Shown here one piece after another: positions 5,247 through 26,426 of a stretch of 64,000 nucleotides of DNA (the stretch's first letter is position 1; every line of letters begins with the position of its first letter). The notes under the pieces are model-generated. The model searched no databases. It was not told the DNA's origin and saw only the letters and a program-made list of their open reading frames with translations. Made by a program: the position numbers and the translations under genes. The stretch is from Stenotrophomonas sp. 57 (GTDB lineage Bacteria; Pseudomonadota; Gammaproteobacteria; Xanthomonadales; Xanthomonadaceae): the NCBI RefSeq assembly GCF_030291075.1, contig NZ_CP127407.1:1920001-1984000 (forward strand), given 5' to 3'.

Positions 5247-5321
5247 ATGCACGTGAAAGCGAACAATTCAGCGTTCGGTCGAGTCGTGAATGGAGAAGTG
5301 CTTTGCTACATGGATCAGTAG
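5247..5321 (+). CDS. Short upstream ORF overlapping the priming transferase start
   Basis: A 24-codon reading frame starting MHVKANNSAF and ending in TAG at 5319-5321. It has a good ribosome site, GGGGAG, about 4 nt before the ATG at 5247. It is out of frame with the next gene and runs past that gene's TTG start at 5303, so ribosomes translating it would terminate 16 nt beyond that start. That geometry fits translational coupling or a leader peptide, but nothing shows that the peptide itself matters. Confidence 0.3.
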   Translation: MHVKANNSAFGRVVNGEVLCYMDQ

Positions 5322-6760
5322 AAGACCTCCCCGCAGTGCGGGCCCCAGCGGGCCGCCGTCGCGTAGAAGCGCGGGCTGCCCTCGAGTTGGGCTTGCGGCT
5401 GGGCGATGTGTTGCTGCTGCCGGGCATGGCAGTGCTTTCCCATGCCCTGTTGTACGGTGCAGCTGCGCCGGACTCCTCGCAGCGAATCGTCTTTGGGGCG
5501 GTGATTCTCAGCGCCATAGTGTGCTTCTCCGTTGCGCCCTTGTATCGGAACTGGCGGATGCGCGGGTTGCTGGCCGACCTCTGGTTGCTGCTGCTGGCTT
5601 GGTCCGCCACCTTCGCGTTGTTCTCGCTCTACGCCGTCGTGGTCGGGCTTGCCGATGCGGTGCCGTCGACCTGGCTGATTGGCTGGTATGCCTTTGGCCT
5701 GGGGTCGATGGCGGCGCTGCGTGTGCTCCTGAGGGTGCAGCTGCACCGGCTGCGTTCGCGCGGCATGGATCATGAGCGGATCCTGCTGGTGGGGCTGCGG
5801 GCCCCGGCATTGCGGCTGCATCGCCTGCTGCGCGGGAAGCCGGAACTCGGCAAGAACGTCATTGGCTACTTTGCCTGCGCGGGCGATATCGCGACGCGCC
5901 GTGGGGGGGACGCCCCGTGCCGACTGGGGGGGCTGGAAGACGTTCCGCAGTACATGGATCAGTATCGCGGCGAATTCGATCAGGTGTGGGTGTCGCTGCC
6001 AATAGGGCATGCTGGCGCCATCAAGGACATGCTCAAGCAGATCGAGCGTTTTCCGGTGCCTGTGCGTCTGATTCCCGATACCACGGGCCTGGGGGCGCTC
6101 AATCCCGGCGTGCATCAGGTGGGGGATGTGCCGATGATCGGCGTCCGCCAAGGCCTGACGGATCATCGTTTCCGGCTGTTCAAGCGGGTCGAGGACATCA
6201 TCGTTGCCGGCACAGCGGTGGTCTTGCTGGCGCCGTTGTTTGTCGTGCTCGCCATTGGCGTGAAGCTCAGCTCGCCGGGGCCGGTGTTGTTCCGTCAGAA
6301 GCGCCATGGGCTGGGCGGCAAAGAGTTCTGGATGCTCAAGTTCCGCTCCATGCGCGTGCACGCGGAGGGGGCGGGGCAGATCACCCAGGCAACGCGGGGT
6401 GATCCGCGCGTCACCCGGTTTGGCGCCTTCCTGCGCCGCAGCAGCCTGGATGAACTACCGCAGTTCTTCAATGTGCTGGGCGGGAACATGTCGGTGGTCG
6501 GGCCGCGCCCACACGCGATACAGCACAACAACTACTACGAGCGCGTGATCGAGCGTTACATGCATCGTCACTACGTCAAGCCCGGGATCACCGGCTGGGC
6601 GCAGGTGCACGGCCTGCGCGGCGAGACGCCGGAGCTGCGCTCGATGAAGAAGCGCGTGCAGTACGACATCGATTACATCCGGCGCTGGAGCCCGACGCTG
6701 GACGTGCGGATCATTGCGCTGACCGTGCTGAAGGTTCTAGGCCAGAAGTCGGCGTATTGA
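5303..6760 (+). CDS. Undecaprenyl-phosphate hexose-1-phosphate transferase (GumD/WcaJ type)
   Basis: A 485-residue polyisoprenyl-phosphate hexose-1-phosphotransferase. The N-terminal half has about four membrane helices and a CoA-binding-like domain. The C-terminal catalytic domain carries KLSSPGPVLFRQKRHG, KFRSMRVHAEG, RRSSLDELPQFFNVLGG, VGPRPHA and GITGWAQVHGLRGET, closely following Xanthomonas GumD in order and length. It attaches hexose-1-phosphate, probably glucose, to the lipid carrier at the inner membrane as the first step of repeat-unit assembly. The start is TTG at 5303 with GGAG 7 nt upstream; the next in-frame ATG would delete the first helix. It heads the plus-strand polysaccharide operon. 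Confidence 0.88.
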   Translation: MLHGSVEDLPAVRAPAGRRRVEARAALELGLRLGDVLLLPGMAVLSHALLYGAAAPDSSQRIVFGAVILSAIVCFSVAPLYRNWRMRGLLADLWLLLLAWSATFALFSLYAVVVGLADAVPSTWLIGWYAFGLGSMAALRVLLRVQLHRLRSRGMDHERILLVGLRAPALRLHRLLRGKPELGKNVIGYFACAGDIATRRGGDAPCRLGGLEDVPQYMDQYRGEFDQVWVSLPIGHAGAIKDMLKQIERFPVPVRLIPDTTGLGALNPGVHQVGDVPMIGVRQGLTDHRFRLFKRVEDIIVAGTAVVLLAPLFVVLAIGVKLSSPGPVLFRQKRHGLGGKEFWMLKFRSMRVHAEGAGQITQATRGDPRVTRFGAFLRRSSLDELPQFFNVLGGNMSVVGPRPHAIQHNNYYERVIERYMHRHYVKPGITGWAQVHGLRGETPELRSMKKRVQYDIDYIRRWSPTLDVRIIALTVLKVLGQKSAY

Positions 6761-6912: not shown

Positions 6913-7347
6913 GTGTTCAAGAACGTTCTTTTTGTATGTGTCGGCAATATCTGCCGCAGCCCTTCGGCTGAAGTCATGCTCAGGCAGGCCGTGGCAGGCA
7001 AGGGCATCCAGGTGTCTTCGGCGGGCCTGGGCGCGCTGGTGGGGCACGGCATCGATGCTACCGCACAGGAGTTGCTGGTGGAGCAGGGCATGGATGGGTT
7101 GGCCCACCGCGCGCGCCAGATTGATGACGCCATCCTGGGAGCCGCTGACCTCGTGCTGACCATGGAGCGCAAGCACGTGCGGCGCATCGCCGAGATCGCG
7201 CCGCAGGCGTCCGGCAAGACCTTCCTGCTGGGCAAGTGGCAGCAGGATCGGGAGATTCCCGATCCGTATCGCCAGCAGCGTCCCGCGTTCGAGCATGTCT
7301 ACAAGCTGATGGCTGAGGGCGTGGACAGTTGGGCGCGGCACTTCTGA
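6913..7347 (+). CDS. Low-molecular-weight protein-tyrosine phosphatase (Wzb-like)
   Basis: A 144-residue phosphatase with the P-loop CVGNICRS (nucleophile Cys9, Arg15) at the extreme N-terminus and the general-acid Asp in IPDPYRQQ near residue 115. Wzb-type enzymes dephosphorylate the C-terminal tyrosines of the Wzc kinase so that polymer assembly can cycle. The start is GTG at 6913, which puts Cys at the usual position; earlier in-frame codons would add an unrelated Arg/Ala-rich tail. The Wzc kinase gene begins 57 bp downstream. Confidence 0.9.
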   Translation: MFKNVLFVCVGNICRSPSAEVMLRQAVAGKGIQVSSAGLGALVGHGIDATAQELLVEQGMDGLAHRARQIDDAILGAADLVLTMERKHVRRIAEIAPQASGKTFLLGKWQQDREIPDPYRQQRPAFEHVYKLMAEGVDSWARHF

Positions 7348-7404
7348 AGTCCGCTGCGAATTCCTGTTCTGCAACTCTTTTCCCGCATTGAAGATTCCCA
7401 ATCC

Positions 7405-9618
7405 ATGACCACTGAAGCCCGTACCTCCGCGCCGGAAGACAGCGACGAGATCGATCTGCGCCAGCTGCTTGGAACCTTGATCGACTACAAGTGGTGGATC
7501 GTCGGCATTACCGGCCTGTTCTTCGTGGTCTCGGTTGCATACGCGCTGCTGGTTACCCCCGTCTATCGTGCAGATGCGATCATTCAGGTGGAGCCCAAGA
7601 CGCCAAGCCTGCCTGGGCTTGCCGATATCAGCCAATCACTTGGCATGAGCACCGGTGCCGTCGAGGCAAGCACGGAGATCGCCCTGATCAAATCCCGCGC
7701 GGTCGTAGGGCACGCTGTCGAGCAGCTGAGGATGCATATCCAGGTCGTGCCAGAACGCTTCCCGGTCCTGGGTGGGTACATGGCGCGCCGCGCAGAAGCT
7801 GTCGATCCCGACGTGTTGGCAGCCCCGCTGCTGGGTATGTCGCGTTTTGGTTGGGGCGGAGAGGCGCTTGAGATATTCCAGCTCGACGTCCCGCGCCATC
7901 TCCTGTCCAGGGAGCTGACTCTTGTTGCCGGTGAACACGGTACCTACCAGTTGCTGGATGGGCACGGTGACCTGCTAGTGTCCGGCGTCGTTGGAAAGCC
8001 GGCCAGTGGGCGGGGAGTAACCCTGCAGGTGGCGAAGCTGCGGGCCAACCCGGGCATGAGGTTCGAGGTGGTCCGCGAGAGGCTGCTTACCGTAGTGGGT
8101 GATCTGCAGAAGGAAATTGGTGCGAGCGAGTCCGGCAAGGAGTCGGGTATTCTCGCACTCACTTATGAGAATACCAATGCGGATCTGGCGAAGAATTTTC
8201 TACAGAGGGTCGCGGAGGCATACGTGCGTCAGAACGTTGACCGCAACTCCGCTGAAGCGTCCGCGCAGCTGGCCTTCGTCAAGGAGGCGCTGCCCAATAT
8301 CCGCAATCAGGTTGATACTGCGCAGAAGACGCTGAGTGCCTATCAAACCCGTGCCAACTCGGTTGATCTGACCCTTCAGACGAAGGGCCTGCTGGACCAG
8401 GAGGTCGCGGTTGAGACGAGCATTCAGCAGTTACGATTGCAGCAGGCTGAGATGGATCGCAAGTTCACCCGTGATCATCCTGCTTATCAGGCGCTGATGC
8501 GCCAGATTGGCGAGCTGGAAGGGCGCAAGAGCGGCTTCCAGGGGCAGGTAAAGCAGCTTCCCGAAGCGCAGCAGGAATTGTTGCGTCTGACCCGGGATCT
8601 GCAGGTCAGCAATGAAATGTACACCGCAATGCTCAATCAGGCGCAACAGCTTGACGTTGCCCGCGCTGGCACTGTCGGAAACGTTCGCGTCGTGGATACG
8701 GCCGAGGTGGATTCGACAACGCCTGTTCGTCCGCGCAAGACGCTCGTTGTGCTTGTCGGAACGGTCCTGGGTGCATTGCTTTCGATTGCTCTGGTGCTGC
8801 TGAAGCAGCTGCTCAATCGCGGCGTGGAAGATCCATCGCAGATTGAGGAGCTGGGTCTTCCCGTGTACGCATCGATCCCGGTGAGTGTGCAGCAGCAGGG
8901 TGATTCCGTCCGCGGCAAGTTCCGGGCAGATGGAAAGCTGCATCTGCTGGCGGTGAAGGATCCGGCTGACCTGGCCATTGAGGCGGTGCGCAGCCTGCGT
9001 ACAAGCCTGCACTTCGCACGGCTGGAGGCCAAGAACAATATCGTGCTGATCTCGGGCGCCAGCCCGAATGCGGGCAAGACGTTTGTATCGTCGAATCTGG
9101 CCGCTGTGATCGCTCAGGCCGGCCAGAAGGTTCTGATTGTTGACGCTGATATGCGCAAGGGCACACTTCACAAAGCGCTGGGCGCAACCCAGATGCCGGG
9201 CCTGTCGGATCTGCTGGTCGGCAAGGCGGATTGTTCCGACGTCGTGCGCACGCTGCCGGGTCTCGAGAACTTGAGCTTCATCTCTCGTGGTGACGTTCCG
9301 CCGAACCCCTCCGAGCTGCTTATGCATGCCAATTTCACGCGGCTTCTCGAGGATCTGGCACCGCAGTACGACCTGATCATCGTTGATACGCCCCCGATTC
9401 TTGCCGTTACCGACGCCGCGATCATTGCCCATCACGCCGGCACCTGCTTGATGGTTGCCCGTTTTGGCCTGAATCAGGCAAAGGAACTGGCGCTGGCCAA
9501 GCGTCGATTCGAGCAGAACAACGTGCGCATAAAAGGCGCCATCTTCAACGCAGTCCAGCGCCGTGCAACTGGCTACTACAGCTACGGCTACTACGAGTAC
9601 AAATCGACTGCCGCATAG
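7405..9618 (+). CDS. wzc: Polysaccharide co-polymerase / tyrosine autokinase (Wzc family)
   Basis: A 737-residue bacterial tyrosine kinase. An N-terminal Wzz domain begins with a membrane helix (about 35-55) and includes a long periplasmic coiled coil (about 260-410) and a second helix (about 450-470). The cytoplasmic kinase has Walker A SPNAGKT (about 551-557), Walker A' VLIVDADMRKG and Walker B LIIVDTPP. The tail contains the tyrosine cluster TGYYSYGYYEY, the usual autophosphorylation site. It sets chain length and couples the polymerase to the Wza export channel. The phosphatase lies just upstream and wza is in the convergent operon. Confidence 0.93.
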   Translation: MTTEARTSAPEDSDEIDLRQLLGTLIDYKWWIVGITGLFFVVSVAYALLVTPVYRADAIIQVEPKTPSLPGLADISQSLGMSTGAVEASTEIALIKSRAVVGHAVEQLRMHIQVVPERFPVLGGYMARRAEAVDPDVLAAPLLGMSRFGWGGEALEIFQLDVPRHLLSRELTLVAGEHGTYQLLDGHGDLLVSGVVGKPASGRGVTLQVAKLRANPGMRFEVVRERLLTVVGDLQKEIGASESGKESGILALTYENTNADLAKNFLQRVAEAYVRQNVDRNSAEASAQLAFVKEALPNIRNQVDTAQKTLSAYQTRANSVDLTLQTKGLLDQEVAVETSIQQLRLQQAEMDRKFTRDHPAYQALMRQIGELEGRKSGFQGQVKQLPEAQQELLRLTRDLQVSNEMYTAMLNQAQQLDVARAGTVGNVRVVDTAEVDSTTPVRPRKTLVVLVGTVLGALLSIALVLLKQLLNRGVEDPSQIEELGLPVYASIPVSVQQQGDSVRGKFRADGKLHLLAVKDPADLAIEAVRSLRTSLHFARLEAKNNIVLISGASPNAGKTFVSSNLAAVIAQAGQKVLIVDADMRKGTLHKALGATQMPGLSDLLVGKADCSDVVRTLPGLENLSFISRGDVPPNPSELLMHANFTRLLEDLAPQYDLIIVDTPPILAVTDAAIIAHHAGTCLMVARFGLNQAKELALAKRRFEQNNVRIKGAIFNAVQRRATGYYSYGYYEYKSTAA

Positions 9619-9715
9619 GGTTCTTCAAGCTGGGGTGCGAGGTACATTGCCCTGTGGAGCAACTGCTGGCACCCGCCCTGTGGGTGATCAGGCTGATACT
9701 GGTGTGGTGCGCGTG

Positions 9716-10465
9716 ATGAAAAGTAGTGATTCGCTCCGTCTGTTGCGCGAGCTCCTCCTGCACAGAAACAAGGACTGGCGACAACACAATCCGGATCGCG
9801 ATGGTTGCGTGCTGGTCACGTTTGTGAATCCCTTGACCGTGCATGTCCTAAATCAAGCGCCGGGGTATGCAGAAGTCCTCGGAAAGTTTGATCTCATCCA
9901 GCCAGATGGGGGGCTGCTCGCACGGCACGCAACGCGCGTCCTGGGTTTTCCGGTAGCGCGTCGGTCATTTGATGGAAATTCGTTGGCGCCGGAGGTCTTC
10001 GCACATTGCGTAACCAATGGGCTGCGTGTTGGCTTCATAGGTGGTGTGGATGGCGTTGCCTCTGCGGCGTCGGGGCGCATCCAGGATGCATTCGGCATGG
10101 ACGTGAAGTACACGAGGTCCGGCTTCTTCTCAGCAGCAGCAGAGGTTTCAACGTGCTACGACGAGATCATCTCCAACGGGGTTGATGTCGTGGTCTGCGG
10201 AATGGGGGCGCCATATCAGGATCGTTTTCTTGTTGGTCTGAAGGAAGCTGGCTGGCGGGGCTTGGGCTTTACCTGCGGCGGCTATCTTGATCAGGTTGTG
10301 GATTCCGGCATCGAGTACTACCCGGCGCTGGTCAACAGGCTGAACCTTCGCGCGCCCTACCGGCTGATCCGTGAGCCTCGACGGCTGTGGCGACGATACC
10401 TCCTGGAGTACCTGCCCTTCATGTGGGCGGATCTGGCCGGTCGCCTGTCCAGAACACAACGATAG
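9716..10465 (+). CDS. WecG/TagA/CpsF-family (GT26) glycosyltransferase
   Basis: A 249-residue cytoplasmic, membrane-associated GT26 enzyme. Family markers are TFVNPLTVHVLN near the N-terminus, the DLIQPDGG segment, GFIGG and VVVCGMGAPYQD (the family's G-x-P-x-Q/E motif). GT26 enzymes add the next sugar to a lipid-PP-linked acceptor; GumM, WecG and TagA are relatives. It is the only recognisable glycosyltransferase besides the priming enzyme in the locus. The ATG at 9716 is preceded directly by an in-frame GTG, so the start is uncertain by a few codons. The acceptor and donor sugars cannot be read from sequence. Confidence 0.88.
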   Translation: MKSSDSLRLLRELLLHRNKDWRQHNPDRDGCVLVTFVNPLTVHVLNQAPGYAEVLGKFDLIQPDGGLLARHATRVLGFPVARRSFDGNSLAPEVFAHCVTNGLRVGFIGGVDGVASAASGRIQDAFGMDVKYTRSGFFSAAAEVSTCYDEIISNGVDVVVCGMGAPYQDRFLVGLKEAGWRGLGFTCGGYLDQVVDSGIEYYPALVNRLNLRAPYRLIREPRRLWRRYLLEYLPFMWADLAGRLSRTQR

Positions 10466-10532
10466 GCATGCATAGAAGAATGAAGTTGAAGCGATTGATT
10501 CCCGTCGCAGCTCAAGCGGAGTGCGGGGAACA

Positions 10533-11711
10533 ATGAGGGTTTCGAGTGCGGGCTCGGGCGTGAGCAGGTCAGCGCTTGCCTCGAGGATGTCGTCCTGGTC
10601 ACTGATTGCACTTGCAATCGCTGGTCTGATGAGTCCGTTCTCCTACAACATGCTGCCCGCGGGCGGCATGCTTGAGATCGTGTTCTTCCTCACGGCTCTC
10701 GTGGTGGCTCGTCTGCCGCGAAAGAACATGATCTGGCTCTTCCTGCTGGCAGGTCTATACGTGGTGGTCTCGTTCGCTCTCATGCGGGTGTCGCGCCCAG
10801 CGAACGTACTGGACTTCATCCAGGCCTACAAGGCATTCATCTACATCGTTCCGCTCTGCATGTTCGTCCGGTCCGGGGTCTTCTCTCCGGCGGCGTCTGC
10901 ACGCCTGCTGAAGCTCCTGATCGTTCTGTTCCTGATCAAGTACGGCTACTCGCTTGCATTGGATTTCAACGCCCGGATGGGGAGCCGGCCAGGCATCTAT
11001 GTTGAGAACAATTACGAACTGATATTCCTGATCCTGGTCTTCTATGTGCTTCGCAACGCACTCGGTCCGCGTCGAATGCTCTGGCTCGCATTGCTGTCCG
11101 TGCTGGTTGCAATATCCGGATCGCGGAGCTCGGTGCTGGCGCTGGTCGTGATGTTCTTCGGCATCTACATGACGCGGCTCAGCCTGAAAACCTTCTTCTA
11201 TGCATTGGGGTTCATTGTCCTTCTCGCCGGAGCGGCCCTGGTCTTTGTCGAAAGGTCTGCGGGTGGCGGCGTCGAAGATATCGACAGGTACAGGTTCCTG
11301 ATGGTTTTCCTATCCGAGACCAGCTCCTGGTCAATCTGGAACTATGCATTCGGGACGATGCCGCTGACGCCTCTCTCGACCCATGCCTGCAATGCACTCT
11401 CCTACTATGAAACGCTGTTCAGCTTCTCCGGTGACGGCAGCTGCTACTCGGTGATTCTGCATTCGTACCTGCTTCGAGCGCTCTTTGATCATGGCGTGCT
11501 TGGTCTGCTCTTCCTGCTCTTCTTCATTGGCAGGTCGCTTCGTGTGAGCGGGTACAGCAAAGTCGATGTCCTGGTTGTGCTGGGAGTAATTCTGAGTTCT
11601 GCCGTTTCAGTATCGGCAATGAACAGCATCTTCGTAAGCCTTGGGCTGATGCTTGCGTTGGGGATGCGTAGAGAATCCGCGCCCTTGTCTCCTGCAGCGA
11701 ATGGGCATTGA
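10533..11711 (+). CDS. wzy: O-antigen/exopolysaccharide polymerase (Wzy-like)
   Basis: A 392-residue, strongly hydrophobic protein with about ten membrane helices and one larger periplasmic loop (about 250-320), the usual Wzy topology. Sequence conservation in this family is low, so the call rests on topology and on its position between a glycosyltransferase and the flippase. The segment GSRSSVLALVVM resembles the short motif common to O-antigen ligase/polymerase proteins. It would link flipped repeat units in the periplasm. The ATG at 10533 follows a GGGGA site; a GTG 4 codons upstream is possible. Confidence 0.75.
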   Translation: MRVSSAGSGVSRSALASRMSSWSLIALAIAGLMSPFSYNMLPAGGMLEIVFFLTALVVARLPRKNMIWLFLLAGLYVVVSFALMRVSRPANVLDFIQAYKAFIYIVPLCMFVRSGVFSPAASARLLKLLIVLFLIKYGYSLALDFNARMGSRPGIYVENNYELIFLILVFYVLRNALGPRRMLWLALLSVLVAISGSRSSVLALVVMFFGIYMTRLSLKTFFYALGFIVLLAGAALVFVERSAGGGVEDIDRYRFLMVFLSETSSWSIWNYAFGTMPLTPLSTHACNALSYYETLFSFSGDGSCYSVILHSYLLRALFDHGVLGLLFLLFFIGRSLRVSGYSKVDVLVVLGVILSSAVSVSAMNSIFVSLGLMLALGMRRESAPLSPAANGH

Positions 11712-11811
11712 TGATGGTTCTCTGCGTTGTCCGTGAGGTGGCATTGGTGGGAGAGGCGCCATTGAATCGCGGCCGCCTCCAGCTCACTGGGCTCACGCTG
11801 GCTTGCCGCTG

Positions 11812-13041
11812 ATGGATGCATCTACCCTCAAGCGTTTGTCTGGAAACGCCGGCGCACTGTTGGCCATCCAGTTGGCCAATGCGCTGTTGCCCCTTGTGCT
11901 GGCTCCGTACCTGACGAGAGTACTGGGACGAGACGGCTATGGCGCATTCGCGTTCGGTGCCGCATTGATTCAGTTCGCAGCGATCATCACCGACTATGGC
12001 TTCGGGATTTCGGCTGTCTATCAGATTTCAAGAGCACGCGGCCATCGGGAGCGCATTCGCCGGATCGCCGGGGCAGTGCTGCTGGTAAAGCTGGCGCTCT
12101 TTGCTTTGGTGGGCGTGGCGTTGATTGGCTACGTGATGAGCGCAGACCACGTTCCGGGCGGCAGTATCTACATCGTACTCCTGCTGATATCGATCCTGGG
12201 CCTGACACTGCAGCCGGTATGGCTGTTCCAGGCACTTGAGAAGATGGCCAGCGTGACGATCTACATCGTGGCGTCTCGCCTGGCCTTCGTTCTGCTCGTC
12301 CTGCTCTTCTGCCGCAGCGCCGACGATCTTCCTCTGGTGGCAGTCCTCAATGGGATGGCGTACCTGTTTGCAGCCCTCGCCGGCTTGTATGTCATGCGGG
12401 GGCGCGGCCTCGCACCCTGCTGGCCGGGCCTGAAACGTATAAGAGTGATTGCGGGTGCCTCCACGGAGTACTTCTGGTCACGGATTGCGGTTGTCAGCTA
12501 TGGCGCGGGCGCGACCATTTTCCTGGGTGTCTTCGGCACCGCAAGCCAGGTTGCGATCTTCTCCGTGGCTGAGCAGTTCTACAGGGGGGCCATCGCCATC
12601 TACTCGCCAGTAACCCAGGCGATATACCCGTATATGGCCAGGTCGCGCGACATTGCCTTGTTCAGGAAGATATTCGTCGGTGCACTCTCTTTGGCGGTGC
12701 TGGGTGTCGCATTTGGAATCCTCTGCGGGCCGATGCTGATATCGATGATATTTGGAGAGGGCTATCAGGAGAGCTACCCGGTGCTGGTGGTGTTTCTGCT
12801 TGCGCTGCTTGCCGCCATCCCCTCAATCCTTCTCGGCTACCCCTTCCTGGGCGCGCTGGGACAGGCGAAGGTCGCCAATCGCAGTGTCTTCCTGGCCGGC
12901 TTCGTTCAGGTGCTGGCACTGAGTGCCATCTATTTCCTGGGCGTTGGCTCTGCGTTGACAGTGGTTGTCGCGGTGCTTCTGGCCGAGTCAAGCGCTCTTA
13001 TCTGGCGCGCACGTGCTGCTTACCCTTATCTAAAAGCTTGA
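11812..13041 (+). CDS. wzx: Polysaccharide repeat-unit flippase (Wzx family)
   Basis: A 409-residue membrane protein of the MATE-like polysaccharide transporter superfamily, with about 12 helices. It opens LKRLSGNAGALLAIQLANALLPLVLAPYL, containing the family's N-terminal helix followed by PYLTRVLG, and FAFGAALIQFAAIITDYGFG is likewise typical. It would move the undecaprenyl-PP-linked unit across the inner membrane. The start is ATG at 11812, with a TTG three codons earlier as an alternative; no clear ribosome site was seen. It follows wzy by 100 bp and precedes the CDP-ribitol synthase by 13 bp. Confidence 0.88.
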   Translation: MDASTLKRLSGNAGALLAIQLANALLPLVLAPYLTRVLGRDGYGAFAFGAALIQFAAIITDYGFGISAVYQISRARGHRERIRRIAGAVLLVKLALFALVGVALIGYVMSADHVPGGSIYIVLLLISILGLTLQPVWLFQALEKMASVTIYIVASRLAFVLLVLLFCRSADDLPLVAVLNGMAYLFAALAGLYVMRGRGLAPCWPGLKRIRVIAGASTEYFWSRIAVVSYGAGATIFLGVFGTASQVAIFSVAEQFYRGAIAIYSPVTQAIYPYMARSRDIALFRKIFVGALSLAVLGVAFGILCGPMLISMIFGEGYQESYPVLVVFLLALLAAIPSILLGYPFLGALGQAKVANRSVFLAGFVQVLALSAIYFLGVGSALTVVVAVLLAESSALIWRARAAYPYLKA

Positions 13042-13054
13042 GGATGTTGGTCAT

Positions 13055-14449
13055 ATGAAGGACGTCAAAAACATAGCGGTCGTTCTCGCGGGGGGGAAGG
13101 GCTCAAGGAGCGGCTTCAACAAACCCAAGCAGATGATGAAGCTTGCTGGAAAGACGGTCCTTGAGCATGTGATTCAGGCCTTCCAGTCACATGAGGCCAT
13201 CCACGAGATACTGATCGTTTCCAACATGGACTGCATCGAGGAAGTCGAGTCCGTTGTCACCAACGGTCGGTTCGGAAAAGTGAAGGCCATCATCGGAGGC
13301 GGGAGTGAGCGCTACCAGTCCTCGCTGGCTGCCATCGATGCGACACGGCATTACTGCAAGGATCACAGGGTTCAGCTGATCTTCCACGATGCGGTGCGCC
13401 CGCTTATCAGCCGTCGGATCATTGGCGATGTCGTCGAGGCGCTGCGGAGCTACAACGCAGTGGATGTGGTGATCAAGACGACGGACACGATCATCGTCGC
13501 GGATCCCAGGACCAACACGATCTCCGGGATACCCGATCGCAGCCTGCTGAGGAATGGGCAGACCCCGCAGGCGTTCTCGCATCAGACGATCGAGCGCGCT
13601 TATGGCATTGCCATGAAAGATCCCTCCTTTGTAACCACCGACGATTGTGGCGTTGTCCTGAAGTACCTTCCCGAAGAGAAGATCTTCCTGGTGGATGGCG
13701 ATACAGGCAACATGAAGCTGACTTACGAAGAGGATCTGCATATCCTCGACAAGCTCTGCCAGCTGCGCTCGACGCTCCTGGATGTAAAGGAACGAGTTCA
13801 GTTCTCACTTTCGGCGCTGAGGGGCAAGGTCCTGGTCGTCTTCGGCGGGACGAGTGGGATCGGCAAGGAAATCGCCGATATCGCGACTGCGTATCAAGCC
13901 AAGGTTGTTGTGGCTGGCCGTTCGACTGGCATCGACATATCCAGTCTTGAGGACGTCACAGGCCTGCTTGCCGACGTCGCGCGCAAGCATGGCAGGATTG
14001 ATTTCGTTGTGAACTCGGCGGCAGTGCTGGTACGTCAACCTCTGGTTGATATGGATCAGCTGGATGTGGCCGAGGCAATCAACGTGAACTATGTCGGTGC
14101 AGTGAATGTCGCGCTCGCATCTTTCGACTATCTCCGCGACTCGCAGGGGCAGCTGCTCAATTTCACCTCCAGCTCGTATACCTACGGAAGATCGATGTAC
14201 AGTCTGTACAGTTCGTCGAAGGCCGCGGTGGTCAACCTGACGCAAGCGCTCGCTGATGAATGGCACGCTCAAGGCGTGCGGGTGAATTGCGTGAATCCAG
14301 AACGAACCGCGACTCCCATGCGCACGAAGGCCTTTGGAATCGAGCCGGAAGGCTCCCTGTTGAGTGCGGAAGAGGTTGCAGAAAAGTCCCTGCTGGTGCT
14401 GCTGTCTGACTACACGGGCCAGATCTTCGATGTGAAGAAGACGAAATGA
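13055..14449 (+). CDS. Bifunctional ribulose-5-phosphate reductase / CDP-ribitol pyrophosphorylase (Bcs1-like)
   Basis: A 464-residue fusion. Residues 1-235 are an IspD/TarI-type cytidylyltransferase, with the nucleotide loop LAGGKGSRSG (11-20) and HDAVRPLIS (111-119). Residues 255-464 are a short-chain reductase with GGTSGIG (264-270), NSAAV (320-324) and the Tyr385-x3-Lys389 pair. The same domain order occurs in Haemophilus influenzae Bcs1, which reduces D-ribulose 5-phosphate to ribitol 5-phosphate and activates it with CTP to CDP-ribitol. A generic IspD role is unlikely because the fused reductase and LicD neighbour point to ribitol. Its stop overlaps the next start by 4 nt, so the two products are made in coordination. 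Confidence 0.85.
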   Translation: MKDVKNIAVVLAGGKGSRSGFNKPKQMMKLAGKTVLEHVIQAFQSHEAIHEILIVSNMDCIEEVESVVTNGRFGKVKAIIGGGSERYQSSLAAIDATRHYCKDHRVQLIFHDAVRPLISRRIIGDVVEALRSYNAVDVVIKTTDTIIVADPRTNTISGIPDRSLLRNGQTPQAFSHQTIERAYGIAMKDPSFVTTDDCGVVLKYLPEEKIFLVDGDTGNMKLTYEEDLHILDKLCQLRSTLLDVKERVQFSLSALRGKVLVVFGGTSGIGKEIADIATAYQAKVVVAGRSTGIDISSLEDVTGLLADVARKHGRIDFVVNSAAVLVRQPLVDMDQLDVAEAINVNYVGAVNVALASFDYLRDSQGQLLNFTSSSYTYGRSMYSLYSSSKAAVVNLTQALADEWHAQGVRVNCVNPERTATPMRTKAFGIEPEGSLLSAEEVAEKSLLVLLSDYTGQIFDVKKTK

Positions 14450-15267
14450 CTGCGCATGCGATCGAAGATGTTCAGCAGGTGATGCTCAATGCGCTTCAGG
14501 AGTTTCACGAATTCTGCCTGCGGAATCAGCTTCGCTATTACCTAATTGGCGGCAGTCTGATTGGTGCGGTTCGGCACCAGGGGCCGATCCCGTGGGACGA
14601 TGATATCGACATTGGAATGCCCAGGTCCGACTATCTCCGATTCCAGAAGCTGTCTTCGGAGTTCTCGCCGAGTTATCGTGTGTCGTATGTTGGGGGAGAT
14701 GCTGGATACATCTATCCTTTCAGCAAGGTCTACGATGTCAGCACGTCGGTTACGGAAGTGCTGTGTTTCGAGTTCACCCGGGGGGTCTGGCTGGATGTGT
14801 TTCCATTGGATGGGACATTCCAGGGGCGGGCGATGCGGACTTTCCATCTCTGGCTTGCCCGCCTGATGAAAGGCGGCTTTGCCACGGTAACCGGTGCCTA
14901 TGTTCCGAAGGACTGTTCCCGAGCCGTTCGAAGCGTGCGCGCGTGCATCAGGTGGGTTGCGAAGCCGGTTCCTGTAGGCTGGATTCATTCAGCCCTGCAT
15001 TCCTTCCTGGCGATGAAGTCGTTTGACGCGTCTACCCACGTGGCGAATCTGCTGGGCCGTTGGGGCCCGCGAGAGGTGTCCCGGCGCGAAGTCTTTGAAG
15101 CGGCCGTACCGATGCAGTTCGCCAATCATGAATTCCTGGCGCCGGTTGGTTACGATGAGTATCTTCGTGGCGTCTATGGCGATTACATGAGGCTGCCGCC
15201 GGAGGCCGCGAGGGTTCCGGCGCATTCCACGGGTCACATCTCACTTGTGAAATCGTTTATCGACTGA
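14446..15267 (+). CDS. LicD-family phosphotransferase, probable ribitol-phosphate transferase
   Basis: A 273-residue LicD/fukutin-type nucleotidyltransferase-fold enzyme. The core motif is GGSLIGAVRHQG (35-46) followed by IPWDDDIDIGM, with metal-binding acidic residues at 51-55. Family members transfer phosphocholine (LicD) or ribitol phosphate (eukaryotic fukutin and FKRP) from CDP-activated donors to sugars. Because the gene overlaps a CDP-ribitol synthase by ATGA, ribitol 5-phosphate is the most likely group transferred here, to a sugar of the exopolysaccharide unit. It is the last gene of the plus-strand operon and faces yjbH tail to tail. Confidence 0.82.
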   Translation: MTAHAIEDVQQVMLNALQEFHEFCLRNQLRYYLIGGSLIGAVRHQGPIPWDDDIDIGMPRSDYLRFQKLSSEFSPSYRVSYVGGDAGYIYPFSKVYDVSTSVTEVLCFEFTRGVWLDVFPLDGTFQGRAMRTFHLWLARLMKGGFATVTGAYVPKDCSRAVRSVRACIRWVAKPVPVGWIHSALHSFLAMKSFDASTHVANLLGRWGPREVSRREVFEAAVPMQFANHEFLAPVGYDEYLRGVYGDYMRLPPEAARVPAHSTGHISLVKSFID

Positions 15268-15277
15268 GTCGAATGCA

Positions 15278-15301
15278 CGCCGCAGGTTCATTCCTGCGGC
15301 G
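15278..15301. terminator. Hairpin between the convergent polysaccharide operons
   Basis: An 8-9 bp GC-rich stem (CGCCGCAGG paired with CCTGCGGCG) with a 6-nt loop lies 10 bp after the licD-like stop and 23 bp before the yjbH stop. It has no T-run on either strand, so it is only a weak intrinsic-terminator candidate, possibly acting in both directions. Confidence 0.4.
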
Positions 15302-15324
15302 GCATGTCCGCCAGTTTGAGGCGC

Positions 15325-17496
15325 TCAGTCGACGACATCCTGAAGACTTTCGTAGAAGGAGCGCCTGTCGCGTTCGCCGGTGAGCGTGTAGAGAGAGTAC
15401 TTGCGTCCAAGCATGGCGCCACCATCGCGAATCAGTGGAGCCCACGTAATGGCTGCCTGGCCGCGCGTCGACCTGGGAAGAACCGAATCGAACGGTATGC
15501 TGAAGTAGATTCCCTTGTCGAAGCTTCCTTCGCCGAAATCCTTTGCAGACATGTCCGTCTTTGTGACGTAGGCACCCATGCTCATGCCATTGTCGAACAC
15601 CCGAGCGACGTTGAGGGTGGCGCCGTAGTCGCCAGCAAGGTAACGCCCCAGGGAAAGCGTGCCTACAACGCGATTCTGGCTGTCGAATGAGTAGTAGAGC
15701 GTTGCATGGCCTGTAGTGATTCCGTAGTCGCGCAGTCCGAAGTGCTGGTCAAAGTCACGCTGGCGAACATGGTTGAGATTGGCGCCAATTGCCCAGGATT
15801 CACCCATCGGGCGATACAACAGCTCTCCGCCGATGCCTGCGTACATCCACTCAAGATAGCCGGCATAGGCAATACCGTACGTGTCCCTTCCAAGCCTCCC
15901 GGCCACGTTGGCTTGCAGATTGGGAAGTGTGAGGTCAGAGGTGTTCAGGTATTTGCGGATGTCCGTTCGAACCCGGGGCACTCTGCTTGGCGCGTCATAA
16001 CGGAACTTGTCATAGTTGTTGATGACGTTGGCACTTGCGGTTCCAGTCACCCACATGTTCGGGTTGAGGAACGCGCTACCGCTCGCATTGGCTGAGATCT
16101 GGTACAGGATGAATCCATCCGGTCCCCCCAGATTCTGGCGGTACCCAAGGCTGAAGCCGCCGCCCCATGGCCGGTTGCTGGCTGCATAGAGCTGATCGAC
16201 CTGTTTTTCGCCCGGCGCGGATATCTCGACGCTGCGGCGCAGATCATCCTCGGTTGCACGGCCATCGAGATACGCCTCAAGCGTTTCGCGCTTGAACGAC
16301 ATGTCGACAACGGGCATGCCCATACGCGTGGTCCGGAAGGTGTACCAGTCGTATCGGTCATCAATGGAGTTCGCCAGGATCCGTCCCGCTCTTCCCGCGC
16401 CCTTGGCGCTGCTGGCATAGCGGTTCTGATAGCCATCAATGATCAGCTCTCTGCCATCGTGCGAGATGCTGTCGACGCGCAGTCCTGCGTTGTTGTCCAG
16501 TTCGTTCGCAATCCCGGCCCACGCCGGTTCGCGTGCGGGGCTGGAGGGCGCGGAACCTTGGCGCTGTGACGGGTGTTGAACGATCCGCTGCGGAGGCGGG
16601 TCAAAGGGCTTCGGGGCCGGAGATGCTTGCCCCGGGTTTCCGCGTAGCGTCAGCGAGAACATTGCTGCTTCGCCACGCTCCCACGCGGCGGTCAGTTCAA
16701 CGTTGCGATTTGGCGTGTAGACCAGGCCAAGGTTGATGGGTGAACTCTGCGCAAGGTTGTTGCGGCGAGGTTCGCGCCTGTAGTCATTGCCGTCATATTC
16801 TACCTTGAGAAGGAGGGAGTTCAACGGCGTCTGATAGGTGACGCCACCGAAAACCCCGACAGGTCCCTTGAACATGTTGCTGATGCCGAACTTGCCAGCG
16901 TCCTGGATGTTGCTGGACGCGATGGGTCTGCGATCCTTGAAGCGATCACTGACGAGCCCAAGGGGATTGGAAAAGTCGCCGCGATTTCCGAGGTAGCCCG
17001 TCGCGAGCCCGAGTGAGGCATCGATGGGTCCAAAGCGCTTGCTTGCGACAAGGTACTCACTCGAGAAGAAGCCGGTGCCGCCAAGGTCGCGCACGCCGAA
17101 GGCAAGGTCGGGTGTCCAGGGTGTCTCGCTCCAGAGGCGGAGCTTGAAGTCGATGGACTTGTCCTTGTAGTTCTGGTCGCCGCTTACCTTGTTTGCGCCA
17201 TAGCGGATATTGGACACGTTGATGTAACGGAACGAGCCTTCTAGCCATGGAAATGGCTGCAGCGTCAGGTTGTAGCGACTGTAGGGCGAGTTGTGCGATG
17301 CCGTGAACGCGATGTCGCCATCCTCGGCCATGCGTGCGGTCGGCGTCTGCAGCAAGCCGATGCCGCCCCATTCGCTGGCAGTTGGGGGCGGAGCCTGTTG
17401 CGCATGCAGTTCGGTCGCCAGGGAAAGCGCCAGCAGTGACAGGGCGAAGGCTGCTGGACGAGCAGCGCAGGCGGGCTTGTGGGTGGAGCGGATCAA
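15325..17496 (-). CDS. yjbH: YjbH/GfcD-family outer-membrane polysaccharide protein
   Basis: A 723-residue protein with a signal peptide (hydrophobic core FALSLLALSLATELHA) and a beta-strand-rich body. The start of the mature region, SEWGGIGLLQTPTARMAEDGDIAFTAS, is the characteristic YjbH/DUF940 opening. Mid-section homology to GfcD proteins includes the DRYDWYTFRTTRMGMP segment. Family members are outer-membrane components of exopolysaccharide or group 4 capsule secretion. It is the last gene of the yjbE-wza-yjbF-yjbG-yjbH operon and overlaps yjbG by 4 nt. The exact role is not established even in E. coli. Confidence 0.88.
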   Translation of the reverse strand: MIRSTHKPACAARPAAFALSLLALSLATELHAQQAPPPTASEWGGIGLLQTPTARMAEDGDIAFTASHNSPYSRYNLTLQPFPWLEGSFRYINVSNIRYGANKVSGDQNYKDKSIDFKLRLWSETPWTPDLAFGVRDLGGTGFFSSEYLVASKRFGPIDASLGLATGYLGNRGDFSNPLGLVSDRFKDRRPIASSNIQDAGKFGISNMFKGPVGVFGGVTYQTPLNSLLLKVEYDGNDYRREPRRNNLAQSSPINLGLVYTPNRNVELTAAWERGEAAMFSLTLRGNPGQASPAPKPFDPPPQRIVQHPSQRQGSAPSSPAREPAWAGIANELDNNAGLRVDSISHDGRELIIDGYQNRYASSAKGAGRAGRILANSIDDRYDWYTFRTTRMGMPVVDMSFKRETLEAYLDGRATEDDLRRSVEISAPGEKQVDQLYAASNRPWGGGFSLGYRQNLGGPDGFILYQISANASGSAFLNPNMWVTGTASANVINNYDKFRYDAPSRVPRVRTDIRKYLNTSDLTLPNLQANVAGRLGRDTYGIAYAGYLEWMYAGIGGELLYRPMGESWAIGANLNHVRQRDFDQHFGLRDYGITTGHATLYYSFDSQNRVVGTLSLGRYLAGDYGATLNVARVFDNGMSMGAYVTKTDMSAKDFGEGSFDKGIYFSIPFDSVLPRSTRGQAAITWAPLIRDGGAMLGRKYSLYTLTGERDRRSFYESLQDVVD

Positions 17497-18272
17497 GGTT
17501 GCAGGGCCTGGGTAGCGATGAATGCCGCGAAGTCGGCATTGAAGGCGCTGTCGACTGCATCGATGGCATGCTGGCGAAGCGGTACGAAGATGACGCCGCC
17601 AGGTGCGACGGCCTGCGGGTCAGCGCGGTTCCATAGCGCGACGCCGACCTTCTGCACAGTCATGTCGGGCTGTACGATATAGAGATCATTGCGGTCGGCA
17701 GCGCTGGTCACGATGCAGTCGCGCAGGTAGTCATGCACGTCGCGCAACGGCTGGTGGGGGAGTTCGCAAGCTGATTCGACAGCGCCAAGCACGGTGATCG
17801 TGTTGGGCCGACGAGGCACGCGCAGCGCATCGCCTTGTTCAAGGATTGGATCGCTGTCCCTTTGAACCTGCATCAGGCGCATGTCGTTGATTGGGAGCGG
17901 CATGCGGCCGGATGCGGGATGGTCCTGCAGCCAGCGCGACAACGCTGTCGCGGCCGCTGCGATCTGCGGATCCTGGTGCTCTTCGAGCAGGTCCAGGCTG
18001 TACTGCAGGCCGGCCCGCAACCGAACCTGCTGCGGGCGCGCACCCTGCCGGTGCAGTGCGATTCCGGGCAGGTAGGCGTCTGAAGCGGGGTGCGTGGTGG
18101 CCATAAGCTGAGACAGGCGAGTGCCTGCAGCCACAGTGTGGCTTCCTGGTGCCAGCGACGCACCTTCGGCGACAACCTCGAGATTGCGGGATGCGGCAGA
18201 TCCATTCGCGAGGGCAGCGCCCGATGCCAGCAGCACGGCCAGCAGAAGCATGAATCGCAATGCCATGGTCAA
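17493..18272 (-). CDS. yjbG: YjbG/GfcC-family capsule biosynthesis protein
   Basis: A 259-residue exported protein with a signal peptide ending near ALANG. GfcC-family features are the SLBB-like domains (SHTVAAGTRLSQLM and NTITVLGAVESACELPH) and the long C-terminal amphipathic helix with VIFVPLRQHAIDAVDSAFN. GfcC is a periplasmic protein thought to modulate the Wza channel. It overlaps the genes on both sides by 4 nt, indicating translational coupling within the export operon. Confidence 0.87.
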   Translation of the reverse strand: MTMALRFMLLLAVLLASGAALANGSAASRNLEVVAEGASLAPGSHTVAAGTRLSQLMATTHPASDAYLPGIALHRQGARPQQVRLRAGLQYSLDLLEEHQDPQIAAAATALSRWLQDHPASGRMPLPINDMRLMQVQRDSDPILEQGDALRVPRRPNTITVLGAVESACELPHQPLRDVHDYLRDCIVTSAADRNDLYIVQPDMTVQKVGVALWNRADPQAVAPGGVIFVPLRQHAIDAVDSAFNADFAAFIATQALQP

Positions 18273-18949
18273 TCCTTTGCGGGGCGGTATGGCTTGAGCT
18301 GCACCAGCTCCACGGTGTAGGACGGGCCCAGTTGCTGCCTGCTCTTCCAGATGAAGCCTGTAACCGGATCTGCCCAGTAGATGTTGTGTGCCCGGAAGCC
18401 GCCCACGATGCGCTCGTCAAAGCGCACTAGGGATCGCTCCTTGCCCAGGATGCTGATTGACTCGATGTCGCCGCGGGTCAGCGTGCCCGTGGCCTGGACA
18501 CCCATGCGATAGCTGGGAATCCAGTCGTATTCCCGCTGCACGGTGGTGCTGGCGTTGAGCGCCTCCAGCCTGACAAACGGCGAAGCGCCGATGATTCGGG
18601 CCTGGAGTTGCCGACCCGGGCTCGAAACGCCTGTCACCAGTCCCGTGCTGTCGAGCTGGAACACGGCATTGCTGCCGGCATACCAGCTCTGGCGACCTGC
18701 ATCGACGTAGCCCAGCACCATCACCGCTGACAGATCGGGGGTCTTCAACTGCGCCTGGGGAAAGCGGTTTGCGGCGACCTGTTCAGGCGTAGCCACCACC
18801 TGTCGCTTGAACAGCAGGCGGAAGGAGTCGCTGGTTGCACGGCTGGCCGTGGTGCAGCCTGCCAGCGTCGCCAGAACGGAAAGGGCCATCATCCATTGGA
18901 GGGTGCGCCGCAGATTGCTGCGCGCCCGAAGCACATCCATGCACATCAT
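18269..18949 (-). CDS. yjbF: YjbF/GfcB-family lipoprotein
   Basis: A 226-residue lipoprotein: a basic N-region, a hydrophobic stretch and the lipobox LAGC around residue 32. The mature part includes YVDAGRQSWYAGSNAVFQLDSTGLVTGV and ends in a region describing an interaction strand (DPVTGFIWKSRQQLGPSYTVEL), as in YjbF/GfcB. It is predicted to be anchored in the outer membrane and to assist polymer export. The tandem ATG ATG start lies 1 nt after the wza stop, with a further in-frame ATG two codons in. Confidence 0.85.
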   Translation of the reverse strand: MMCMDVLRARSNLRRTLQWMMALSVLATLAGCTTASRATSDSFRLLFKRQVVATPEQVAANRFPQAQLKTPDLSAVMVLGYVDAGRQSWYAGSNAVFQLDSTGLVTGVSSPGRQLQARIIGASPFVRLEALNASTTVQREYDWIPSYRMGVQATGTLTRGDIESISILGKERSLVRFDERIVGGFRAHNIYWADPVTGFIWKSRQQLGPSYTVELVQLKPYRPAKD

Positions 18950-18950
18950 G

Positions 18951-20060
18951 TCACTTGTTCCCGACTTCGTTCTCCGTGCGGGCGGCGGTATACAGGATGT
19001 TGGTGAACGGCAGCAACTGGTTCACGAAGCGGTTCCAGCGGGTGACGCCGGCCGCGCCGACGAAGACCACATCGCCTGGCTGCAGCATGAACTGACTGCC
19101 GACCGCGAATGCGGTGGGGGAGCGGGCTTCCAGCTGATAAATCGTGGAGGGAACGGTTTCCAGATCCTTGCTGCCACGGATCACGTAGACCGCATTGCCG
19201 GCGGAGGTTTCCTGGGTCAGGCCGCGGGCACGGCCCAGTGCCTGGTTCAGCGATACATCGCCGGTACGGAAGCTGTAGGCGCCGGGAAGATTGACTTCGC
19301 CCACCACGAAGATTTCCTTGCGATCCAGGTAGGGAATGAAGATCGAGTCCCCGTCCTTCAGGAACAGTTGGCGACCGCCATGCTGGGTAGCCAGTGTTTC
19401 CAGATTGATCGTATAGGTGGCGCCAGCGCGGCTGAGGCGCACGCCGGACAGGTCCGCCTGATTGACGTTCAGGCCGGCTTGGCTGATGGCGTCGGCCAGG
19501 GTCAACGGAGAGGTGCCCAGCGCGATCGGCGCTGAGCGCTCGGCGGCGCCAGTGACCCACACGCGTTGACTGCCGTAGGTGAGAATGGAGACATCGACCT
19601 GGGGAGATTCGATGTACTGGGCCAGGCGCCTGCTGATTTCCTCGCGAAGCGCGACGGGCGTCTTGCCCTTTGCTTGGACCTTGCCGATGTAGGGGTAGAA
19701 CAGGGAGCCATCGCTCTGCACAAGGCGCCCGGCAAGGTTGCCCTGTTGTTGAGGGCCTGCCGGTACCGTCAGTTCCGGGTGATCCCATACGGTGACGTAG
19801 AGAATGTCGCCGATGCCGACGGTGTACTCCGGCGGCTGGTAGTCGAACAGTTCGGAGGGAAGGACCTGCTCGCCCTGCGTGGCTCGATCCATCGCAACAA
19901 GCTTCGGCGTGATGCTGATGAGCTCAAGATGGCGGTCGTCGCTTTGACGTCCAAGCGAGACATCGCTGTGGCGCAAGTGCTGGCCGGGCGCCAGCAGGCA
20001 GCCGGAAAGTGTGGTGGCTGTCAGTAGGGCAGCCGCGAGGCAGGTCAACTTCTTGATCAT
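18951..20060 (-). CDS. wza: Polysaccharide export outer-membrane lipoprotein
   Basis: A 369-residue Wza-family channel protein. The signal peptide MIKKLTCLAAALLTATTLSGC ends in a lipobox. The polysaccharide export domain begins at YTVGIGDILYVTVWDHPELT and is followed by SLBB domains (GSQRVWVTGAAERSAPIALG and EIFVVGEVNLPGAYSF). The C-terminal PGDVVFVGAAGVTRWNRFVNQLLPF is the amphipathic helix that forms the octameric outer-membrane pore. It would export the polymer made by the convergent wzx/wzy operon, coupled to Wzc. The start at 20060 gives a perfect lipoprotein leader; upstream in-frame codons run into the terminator. Confidence 0.92.
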   Translation of the reverse strand: MIKKLTCLAAALLTATTLSGCLLAPGQHLRHSDVSLGRQSDDRHLELISITPKLVAMDRATQGEQVLPSELFDYQPPEYTVGIGDILYVTVWDHPELTVPAGPQQQGNLAGRLVQSDGSLFYPYIGKVQAKGKTPVALREEISRRLAQYIESPQVDVSILTYGSQRVWVTGAAERSAPIALGTSPLTLADAISQAGLNVNQADLSGVRLSRAGATYTINLETLATQHGGRQLFLKDGDSIFIPYLDRKEIFVVGEVNLPGAYSFRTGDVSLNQALGRARGLTQETSAGNAVYVIRGSKDLETVPSTIYQLEARSPTAFAVGSQFMLQPGDVVFVGAAGVTRWNRFVNQLLPFTNILYTAARTENEVGNK

Positions 20061-20084
20061 TTGATTACGTAGATTCGACGGGCA

Positions 20085-20119
20085 TAAAAAACCCTCGCCA
20101 AGCATTGCCCGGCGAGGGC
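20085..20119 (-). terminator. Intrinsic terminator between yjbE and wza
   Basis: On the minus strand an 8-bp stem, CCCTCGCC paired with GGCGAGGG, is followed at once by a run of six T. It lies 22 bp after the yjbE stop and before wza. It would cut most transcripts after yjbE, so yjbE should be made in excess over the export proteins unless read-through is regulated. Confidence 0.85.
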
Positions 20120-26226: not shown

Positions 26227-26273
26227 TGTGATGCAGGTCACACATTTGTCTGAAATGTGTTAACTTGGTCACA
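26227..26273. promoter_or_regulatory. Two CRP/Clp-type boxes upstream of the giant surface gene
   Basis: Box 1 at 26227-26242 reads TGTGATGCAGGTCACA, a perfect TGTGA-N6-TCACA palindrome. Box 2 at 26258-26273 reads TGTTAACTTGGTCACA, one mismatch from consensus. Their centres are 31 bp apart, about three helical turns. In Xanthomonadaceae such sites are bound by Clp, whose binding is antagonised by cyclic di-GMP. The boxes are 154-200 bp before the start codon; the rest of the 370-bp gap (26057-26426) shows no gene, only a possible 8-codon mini-ORF at 26385-26411. Confidence 0.65.
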
Positions 26274-26426
26274 GATGTGTGTGCCCAACCAGCCGGGTGC
26301 AGGGACCAAGGCAGGTGCCACGGAGCCGGCAGAACACGTAGTTGCGTGCGCCGCCGGTGCCGGGATTTCGTCCCAGGACACCCAAATGAACTTCGGCCCC
26401 TCTGCGGGCTGAGCGGGGGAATCAAC

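Follow-up and report, generated by a model that had tools for sequence, protein, structure and literature searches.

A Bcs1-type fusion gene and a licD gene predicted to supply ribitol phosphate to an exopolysaccharide in an exchangeable Wzx/Wzy locus of Stenotrophomonas sp. 57

Ribitol polymers and a synthase for CDP-ribitol (cytidine diphosphate ribitol) are already known in Gram-negative bacteria, from the capsule of Haemophilus influenzae type b (Hib) and from O antigens of Proteus. In Hib, one bifunctional protein, Bcs1, reduces ribulose 5-phosphate and activates the product to CDP-ribitol for capsule synthesis (PMC10299916). Ribitol is a constituent of five Proteus O antigens, for which no gene for a CDP-ribitol synthase was found by the authors in the corresponding clusters (PMC5560731). 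For WefL of Streptococcus oralis and for the O antigen of Haemophilus parainfluenzae strain 17, a ribitol-5-phosphate transferase was proposed alongside CDP-ribitol genes of a polysaccharide locus (PMC3989065). In humans, ISPD provides the donor CDP-ribitol, and the LicD-domain transferases FKTN and FKRP act on alpha-dystroglycan (PMC4873967). Here we analysed a 64,000 nt stretch ("the window"; positions 1920001-1984000 of the 4.44-Mb single-contig genome of Stenotrophomonas sp. 57, contig NZ_CP127407.1), in which a gene for a Bcs1-type fusion protein and a licD gene lie within a Wzx/Wzy-type exopolysaccharide locus (Table 1). The sequence makes it probable, at roughly 80%, that this gene pair makes and uses CDP-ribitol, by its synthesis and by the transfer of ribitol 5-phosphate to the exopolysaccharide. 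The initial annotation had considered such a feature undescribed for Stenotrophomonas, and we found no report of a ribitol polymer in this genus in the open-licence literature, as judged by titles and the starts of abstracts.

The fusion gene is an uninterrupted open reading frame (ORF) of 464 aa. Its product matched the Pfam families IspD (residues 7-230, 138.2 bits, cut-off 27) and adh_short (residues 293-425, 112.3 bits, cut-off 26.6), and both families were also present across the 120 listed homologues. When the window fusion was aligned with these homologues, the cytidylyltransferase (CT) motifs P24, K25, HDAVRP (111-116), GQTPQ (168-172), and TDDC (195-198) were found in all 121 sequences, as were the glycines of the GGxxGIG motif (264, 265, 268, 270), S372, Y385, and K389 of the short-chain dehydrogenase/reductase (SDR) half; L11, G14, G16, and R18 were kept in 120 of 121. 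The licD gene, also uninterrupted (273 aa), overlaps the fusion gene by 4 nt (ATGA). Its product matched Pfam LicD (PF04991) with residues 24-245 (128.4 bits, cut-off 22.6), and the DDxD metal motif (D51, D52, D53, D55) was present in all 121 sequences of an alignment of the window LicD with 120 listed homologues. We take the motif residues of both proteins to be catalytic. The family matches of fusion and LicD are strong and not due to chance; the closest named relatives of both are proteins of Stenotrophomonas maltophilia (98% identity for the fusion, 99% for LicD), in keeping with the genus named in the initial annotation. These results confirmed what had been annotated before: an IspD-SDR fusion of the Bcs1 type with intact key motifs, a LicD-family enzyme with an intact DDDID motif, and the 4-nt overlap of the two genes.

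We compared the CT half of the fusion with related proteins in a maximum likelihood tree of 66 rows (one short sequence of 67 was removed; P0003 and L094 represent a single protein). The tree was rooted at midpoint, its bootstrap had not fully converged, and its rows were without a Bcs1 or Acs1 sequence. All 17 fusions formed a single group (support 100/97), and the 30 housekeeping IspDs, the top-scoring 30 from 56 genomes of the class, were all separated by a branch with 100/100 support. Four of the 19 CTs encoded near distant LicDs, two of them streptococcal, joined the fusions (96/81), while the remaining 15 formed a further group on the fusion side of the IspD branch. The streptococcal protein L041, which joined the fusions, reached 385.5 bits on the D-ribitol-5-phosphate cytidylyltransferase model NF001183 (cut-off 166). 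By this tree, the window CT half is nearest to streptococcal TarI and apart from IspD. The best relative in the PDB was 4jis (113.2 bits), which is named ribitol-5-phosphate cytidylyltransferase, as is 6xhp at rank 4. GQTPQ and TDxC were visible in the alignments of 4jis, 2vsh, 3f1c, and 6xhp, and not in that of 1vpa (rank 5, 86.9 bits), which is named as a cytidylyltransferase of the methylerythritol phosphate (MEP) pathway. The combination of GQTPQ and [TS][DE]xC, two motifs chosen after inspecting the PDB alignments, occurred in 17/17 fusions, 0/30 IspDs, and 3/19 of the other CTs near LicDs.

Several observations weigh against a CDP-ribitol synthase that works together with LicD. The window CT half stayed below the cut-off of both relevant NCBIfam models, with 156 bits on the IspD model TIGR00453 (cut-off 181.3) and 152.2 bits on NF001183, and the curated models alone are therefore undecided. 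NF001183 was passed by the related protein P0016 (167.7 bits) and by a Proteus mirabilis fusion (183.4 bits) and missed by fusions from the Stenotrophomonas genome G008 (161.4 bits) and from Parabacteroides (161.3 bits). The PDB entries 2vsh and 3f1c, which rank between 4jis and 6xhp, were named MEP cytidylyltransferases by their depositors; from reading the alignments, we take them to be TarI-like. TIGR00453 is the top NCBIfam match of the fusion, as would be expected of a second cytidylyltransferase for isoprenoid synthesis that came to lie here by chance. We regard this as exceedingly improbable, since the score is under the cut-off and the fusion falls outside the IspD group at 100/100, the genome has a separate IspD (239.3 bits, cut-off 181.3), and neither the reductase domain nor the genetic setting fits. 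The tree decides better than the NCBIfam models, and the assignment of the fusion to the CDP-ribitol type rather than the MEP type, as put forward in the initial annotation, is well supported at the sequence level.

The sequence does not tell ribitol from arabinitol or xylitol, and with the same machinery the fusion might make CDP-arabinitol or CDP-xylitol for transfer by LicD. The fusion was identified by homology only, and its matches span 228 NCBIfam families, most of them SDR reductases with many substrates; routes to CDP-arabinitol exist in pneumococci. We nevertheless consider another polyol unlikely, since the window CT half groups with TarI in the tree and the characterised reductase-CT fusions make CDP-ribitol, as stated for Bcs1 (PMC10299916) and, by the title of a paper in a reference list, for Acs1.

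For the LicD protein, FKRP was the only meaningful match of its profile in the PDB (3e-9, around DDxD); it agrees with the previously suggested donor-transferase logic of ISPD and fukutin/FKRP, and the similarity spans only about 40 residues. A search of genome contigs with the LicD alignment gave 579 loci, and the best 80 of these were used; they came mainly from Bacillota and Bacteroidota of the gut, with identities of 27-37%, and were of little help for the Stenotrophomonas clade. Among the 60 distant loci with readable flanks, a CT-like gene was present within 4 kb of licD in 18 and in none of the other 42, so that LicD by itself does not imply ribitol. LicD gave a family of phosphocholine transferases its name, and the only NCBIfam match of the window LicD was the phosphocholine transferase model, at 56.1 bits (cut-off 225). 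The protein could thus use CDP-choline and put phosphocholine onto the polymer, as Haemophilus LicD does, and the fusion would then serve something else. This appears very unlikely to us: the genome's sole choline-kinase match stays under the cut-off (26.3 versus 29 bits) and was interpreted, with no family scan made, as a generic kinase of the APH-like type (choline-phosphate cytidylyltransferase was not searched for), licD overlaps the fusion gene, and the pairing of fusion and LicD is seen again in Parabacteroides and Proteus. In a LicD tree of 71 rows, the window protein fell within a set of eight rows that are all linked to fusions (100/97); since six of the eight had been entered because their longest listed contig equals in length that of a fusion match, this purity arises partly by selection, and we place no weight on it. 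The 11 fusion-linked LicDs required four label changes in this tree, and LicD and fusion are therefore not one travelling unit everywhere. A last point against concerns the Wzy polymerase candidate of the locus, which scored 15.5 bits on Wzy_C, below the cut-off of 31.7. In its alignment, 12 of 22 members matched Wzy_C at E up to 0.1, and Wzy remains a plausible identity for this gene product.

The CDP-ribitol reading gains from other loci that contain the fusion. In a sample of 91 genomes of the genus, the fusion (E up to 1e-30) was present in three, namely the window genome, G008, and G048, and LicD matches were present in four, at full length in two. When 369 genomes were drawn evenly from the class, the window's own genome alone contained the fusion (E up to 1e-60). 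Window and G008 are 72.6% identical in the fusion, 38.7% in LicD, and 57.6% in Wzx; the better conservation of the fusion would fit one donor and two acceptors. In G048 (L095:8651-11288), the gene following the fusion (43% identity) encodes a TagF-type CDP-glycerol/polyol phosphotransferase (PF04464, 109 bits), with a Wzx upstream and a FkbM methyltransferase also in the locus. By its predicted genes, G048 represents another type of ribitol locus within Stenotrophomonas. A plasmid collection contained three records with the fusion. In a polysaccharide locus of Parabacteroides, licD directly follows the fusion gene. P. mirabilis H110 has the order fusion-wzx-licD, with licD one gene away from the fusion, beside cpxA (L134:11995-15382; 46% identity for the fusion, 32% for Wzx, 27% for LicD), plus a Wzy; this is likely an O-antigen locus. 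The third record is from Nonomuraea gerenzanensis (36.5% identity over 77% of the query). Although the collection classes the H110 record as a plasmid of 4.1 Mb, it looks chromosomal. With Nonomuraea left outside the count, a polyol-phosphate transferase was encoded near the fusion in 5/5 loci, of the LicD type in four (window, G008, Parabacteroides, P. mirabilis) and of the TagF type in one (G048). No relative was found in the viral contigs searched, 20,395 Escherichia coli records gave no match at the DNA level, and in a scan of phage families the fusion had an SDR-domain match and LicD had no match.

The gene pair belongs to an exchangeable cassette between wzc and yjbH. YjbH, at E up to 1e-60, was found in 36 of the 91 genus genomes, and we compared the window with neighbourhoods from 21 of the 35 other YjbH genomes (G008 and 20 sister stretches, L114-L133). 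In ten of the 20 sister stretches, homology extended through wzc, broke at 9607-9611, and resumed in the 3' part of yjbH (15350-15506; 15350-15368 in L114-L118). The other ten go from wzb (7333-7348) straight to yjbH (15321-15350), without wzc or a cassette. The fusion (E up to 1e-30) and LicD matches were both absent from all 20 sister genomes. The GC content of the window cassette is 53-63% (300-base steps), compared to 65.6% for the window. The locus is thus a serotype-like switch locus with sharp borders. In one sister genome, G037, yjbH (C1:675777-677881) appears split in two, with an internal stop in the first part.

The sister cassettes L114, L115, and L117 each carry their own Wzx. Those of L114 and L117 contain a pyruvyltransferase, and that of L115 contains a uridine diphosphate (UDP)-sugar dehydrogenase; these enzymes may instead provide the negative charge there. 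A Wzy with 54-59% identity to the window candidate is common to the cassettes of L114-L118, which are without ribitol genes. The glycosyltransferase family 26 (GT26) gene is shared with L114, L116, L117, and L118 by blastn, and blastp gave 43% identity for L115 and 58% for L118. No protein of L114-L118 matched the window Wzx at E under 0.01. Because GT26 and Wzy resemble those of ribitol-less sister cassettes, while wzx-bcs1-licD resembles the ribitol locus of G008, the window cassette is best read from these comparisons as a mosaic of a GT26-wzy part of resident type and a wzx-bcs1-licD part of other origin.

As listed in Table 1, the initiating transferase, Wzb, Wzc, GT26, the Wzy candidate, and Wzx are encoded upstream of the gene pair, and a yjbH-gfcC-yjbF-wza block lies downstream of licD in divergent orientation. 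The parts of a Wzx/Wzy-dependent locus (initiating transferase, Wzx, Wza, Wzb, Wzc) are therefore present, and the exopolysaccharide locus of the initial annotation was recovered.

Table 1. Genes and cassette of the exopolysaccharide locus (positions in the window).
Feature	Position	Strand	Basis
GalE-like NDP-sugar epimerase	3927-4964	-	Pfam Epimerase, 202 bits; left frame
WcaJ/GumD-type initiating glucose-1-phosphate transferase	5303-6760	+	TIGR03023, 479 bits (equivalog cut-off 410.75); left frame
Wzb-type low-molecular-weight tyrosine phosphatase	6913-7347	+	Pfam LMWPc, 125.7 bits; left frame
Wzc-type chain-length/tyrosine kinase	7405-9618	+	Pfam Wzz, WZC_N, GNVR; last left-frame gene
Exchangeable cassette	~9612-15350		blastn breakpoints against 20 sister stretches
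GT26 (WecG/TagA/CpsF/GumM-type) glycosyltransferase	9713-10465	+	Pfam Glyco_tran_WecG, 91.6 bits
Wzy polymerase candidate	10521-11711	+	membrane protein, 7 hydrophobic segments (crude count)
Wzx flippase	11803-13041	+	Pfam Polysacc_synt, 127.1 bits
Bcs1-type bifunctional CDP-ribitol synthase (predicted)	13055-14449	+	CT domain ~5-236, SDR reductase ~252-460
LicD-family phosphotransferase, predicted cytosolic ribitol-5-phosphate transferase	14446-15267	+	Pfam LicD, DDDID motif
YjbH exopolysaccharide protein	15325-17496	-	Pfam YjbH, 781 bits; first right-frame gene
GfcC-like protein	17493-18272	-	Pfam Caps_syn_GfcC_C, 54.7 bits
YjbF/GfcB lipoprotein	18269-18949	-	Pfam YjbF, 85.1 bits
Wza-type export lipoprotein	18951-20105	-	Pfam SLBB_2, Poly_export, Wza_C

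The GT26 ORF is listed from 9563 to 10465 and so overlaps wzc; the listed start is probably too early. In an even draw of 119 family genomes (E up to 1e-10), GT26 matches were found in 15, and the best one outside the genus was in G538 (34-36% identity). There, Wza-like, weakly Wzc-like, and GumD-like proteins are followed by GT26; the window WcaJ is 52% identical to the protein at the GumD position of this gum-like operon. From its gene order, we take the G538 locus to be a gum operon with GT26 at the position of GumM, the enzyme that adds the second glucose in xanthan. A transfer of N-acetylmannosamine (ManNAc) as by TagA is unlikely, because the genome gave no match to the WecB-type epimerase model TIGR00236 at E up to 1e-3. 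A classical wall teichoic acid pathway was also considered and rejected, as GT26 reached only 40.6 bits on TarA (cut-off 350). Of the 20 window proteins given a Pfam scan, none matched Glyphos_transf (TagF/TarL-type); this search did not extend to the remainder of the genome.

We propose the following route. The C-terminal reductase of the fusion would convert D-ribulose 5-phosphate to D-ribitol 5-phosphate, from which the N-terminal domain would form CDP-ribitol with cytidine triphosphate. WcaJ would start a lipid-linked oligosaccharide with glucose, and GT26 would extend it. The window LicD has no hydrophobic segment (crude count) and would therefore work in the cytosol, transferring ribitol 5-phosphate onto the lipid-linked unit while this is still unflipped. 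Wzx would then flip the unit and the Wzy candidate would polymerise it, and Wzc, Wza, and YjbH would export an anionic exopolysaccharide with ribitol phosphate in every repeat. Ribitol as the polyol, the donor and the acceptor of LicD, the composition of the polymer, and the position of ribitol phosphate in the backbone or as a side group are inferred. In the initial annotation, ribitol 5-phosphate decorates or links the polymer. Decoration fits as well as a teichoic-acid-like linkage or better. We slightly favour a side group, since the similarity of Wzy to the Wzys of cassettes without ribitol genes suggests the same polymerising linkage; the ribitol polymers of pneumococci and S. oralis carry ribitol phosphate in line, which speaks against a side branch.

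Mosaic exchange could have put ribitol phosphate onto a xanthan-like start, i.e. a two-sugar unit made by the GumD-type transferase and the GumM-type GT26, to which LicD adds and which the co-imported Wzx flips, and in neighbouring lineages pyruvate or uronic acid would take the place of ribitol phosphate in giving the polymer its negative charge. We put this forward as a tentative scenario that may well not hold. If it does hold, the product would be a minimal Wzx/Wzy exopolysaccharide of two sugars and ribitol phosphate.

Some observations concern the surroundings of the pair. The GalE-like gene was found at 78-97% identity in 7/20 sister stretches (gene caller). A promoter and terminator scan of 13000-15700 reported nothing; an inverted repeat at 15278-15301, between licD and yjbH, is visible by eye and went unreported by the terminator scan. 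Elsewhere in the window, two ORFs of more than 2100 aa lie on opposite strands of one stretch (26238-32582, minus; 26265-32600, plus), and one of them presumably merely shadows the other, as happens where coding DNA is rich in GC.

From very few genes, an anionic exopolysaccharide with ribitol phosphate is predicted for a genus of opportunistic biofilm formers, and a locus with such sharply bounded exchange is useful with regard to typing, phage receptors, and the biofilm matrix. In S. maltophilia, the exopolysaccharide island GI_6 contains wzc, GT26, and a putative pyruvyltransferase (PMC13310844). It resembles some of the sister cassettes and may be this locus with a different cassette; neither LicD nor CDP is mentioned in the main text of that paper. 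The likeness to Bcs1 and Acs1 of the H. influenzae type b and a capsules is that a single bifunctional CDP-ribitol synthase serves a surface polymer, a comparison of architecture. In Hib, ribitol 5-phosphate is transferred by a TagF-like domain of Bcs3, CroT, and the polymer leaves by an ABC-dependent route (PMC10299916), whereas the window has a LicD in a Wzx/Wzy locus. With the Proteus O antigens, the window shares ribitol, as predicted, and with H110 the fusion, Wzx, LicD, and a Wzy; it differs in that those polymers are O antigens of lipopolysaccharide with other glycosyltransferases. The H110 locus has the fusion, though a serotyping paper reported no such gene for the ribitol-containing Proteus clusters examined (PMC5560731). 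In H. parainfluenzae strain 17, the CDP-ribitol genes are two separate ones (PMC3989065), while they are fused in the window. Human ISPD can be replaced by bacterial TarI (PMC4873967), and the human system therefore needs no reductase half, whereas the window enzyme carries one. With its small set of two glycosyltransferases and one LicD, the window locus offers a directly testable bacterial counterpart of the ISPD/FKRP pair.

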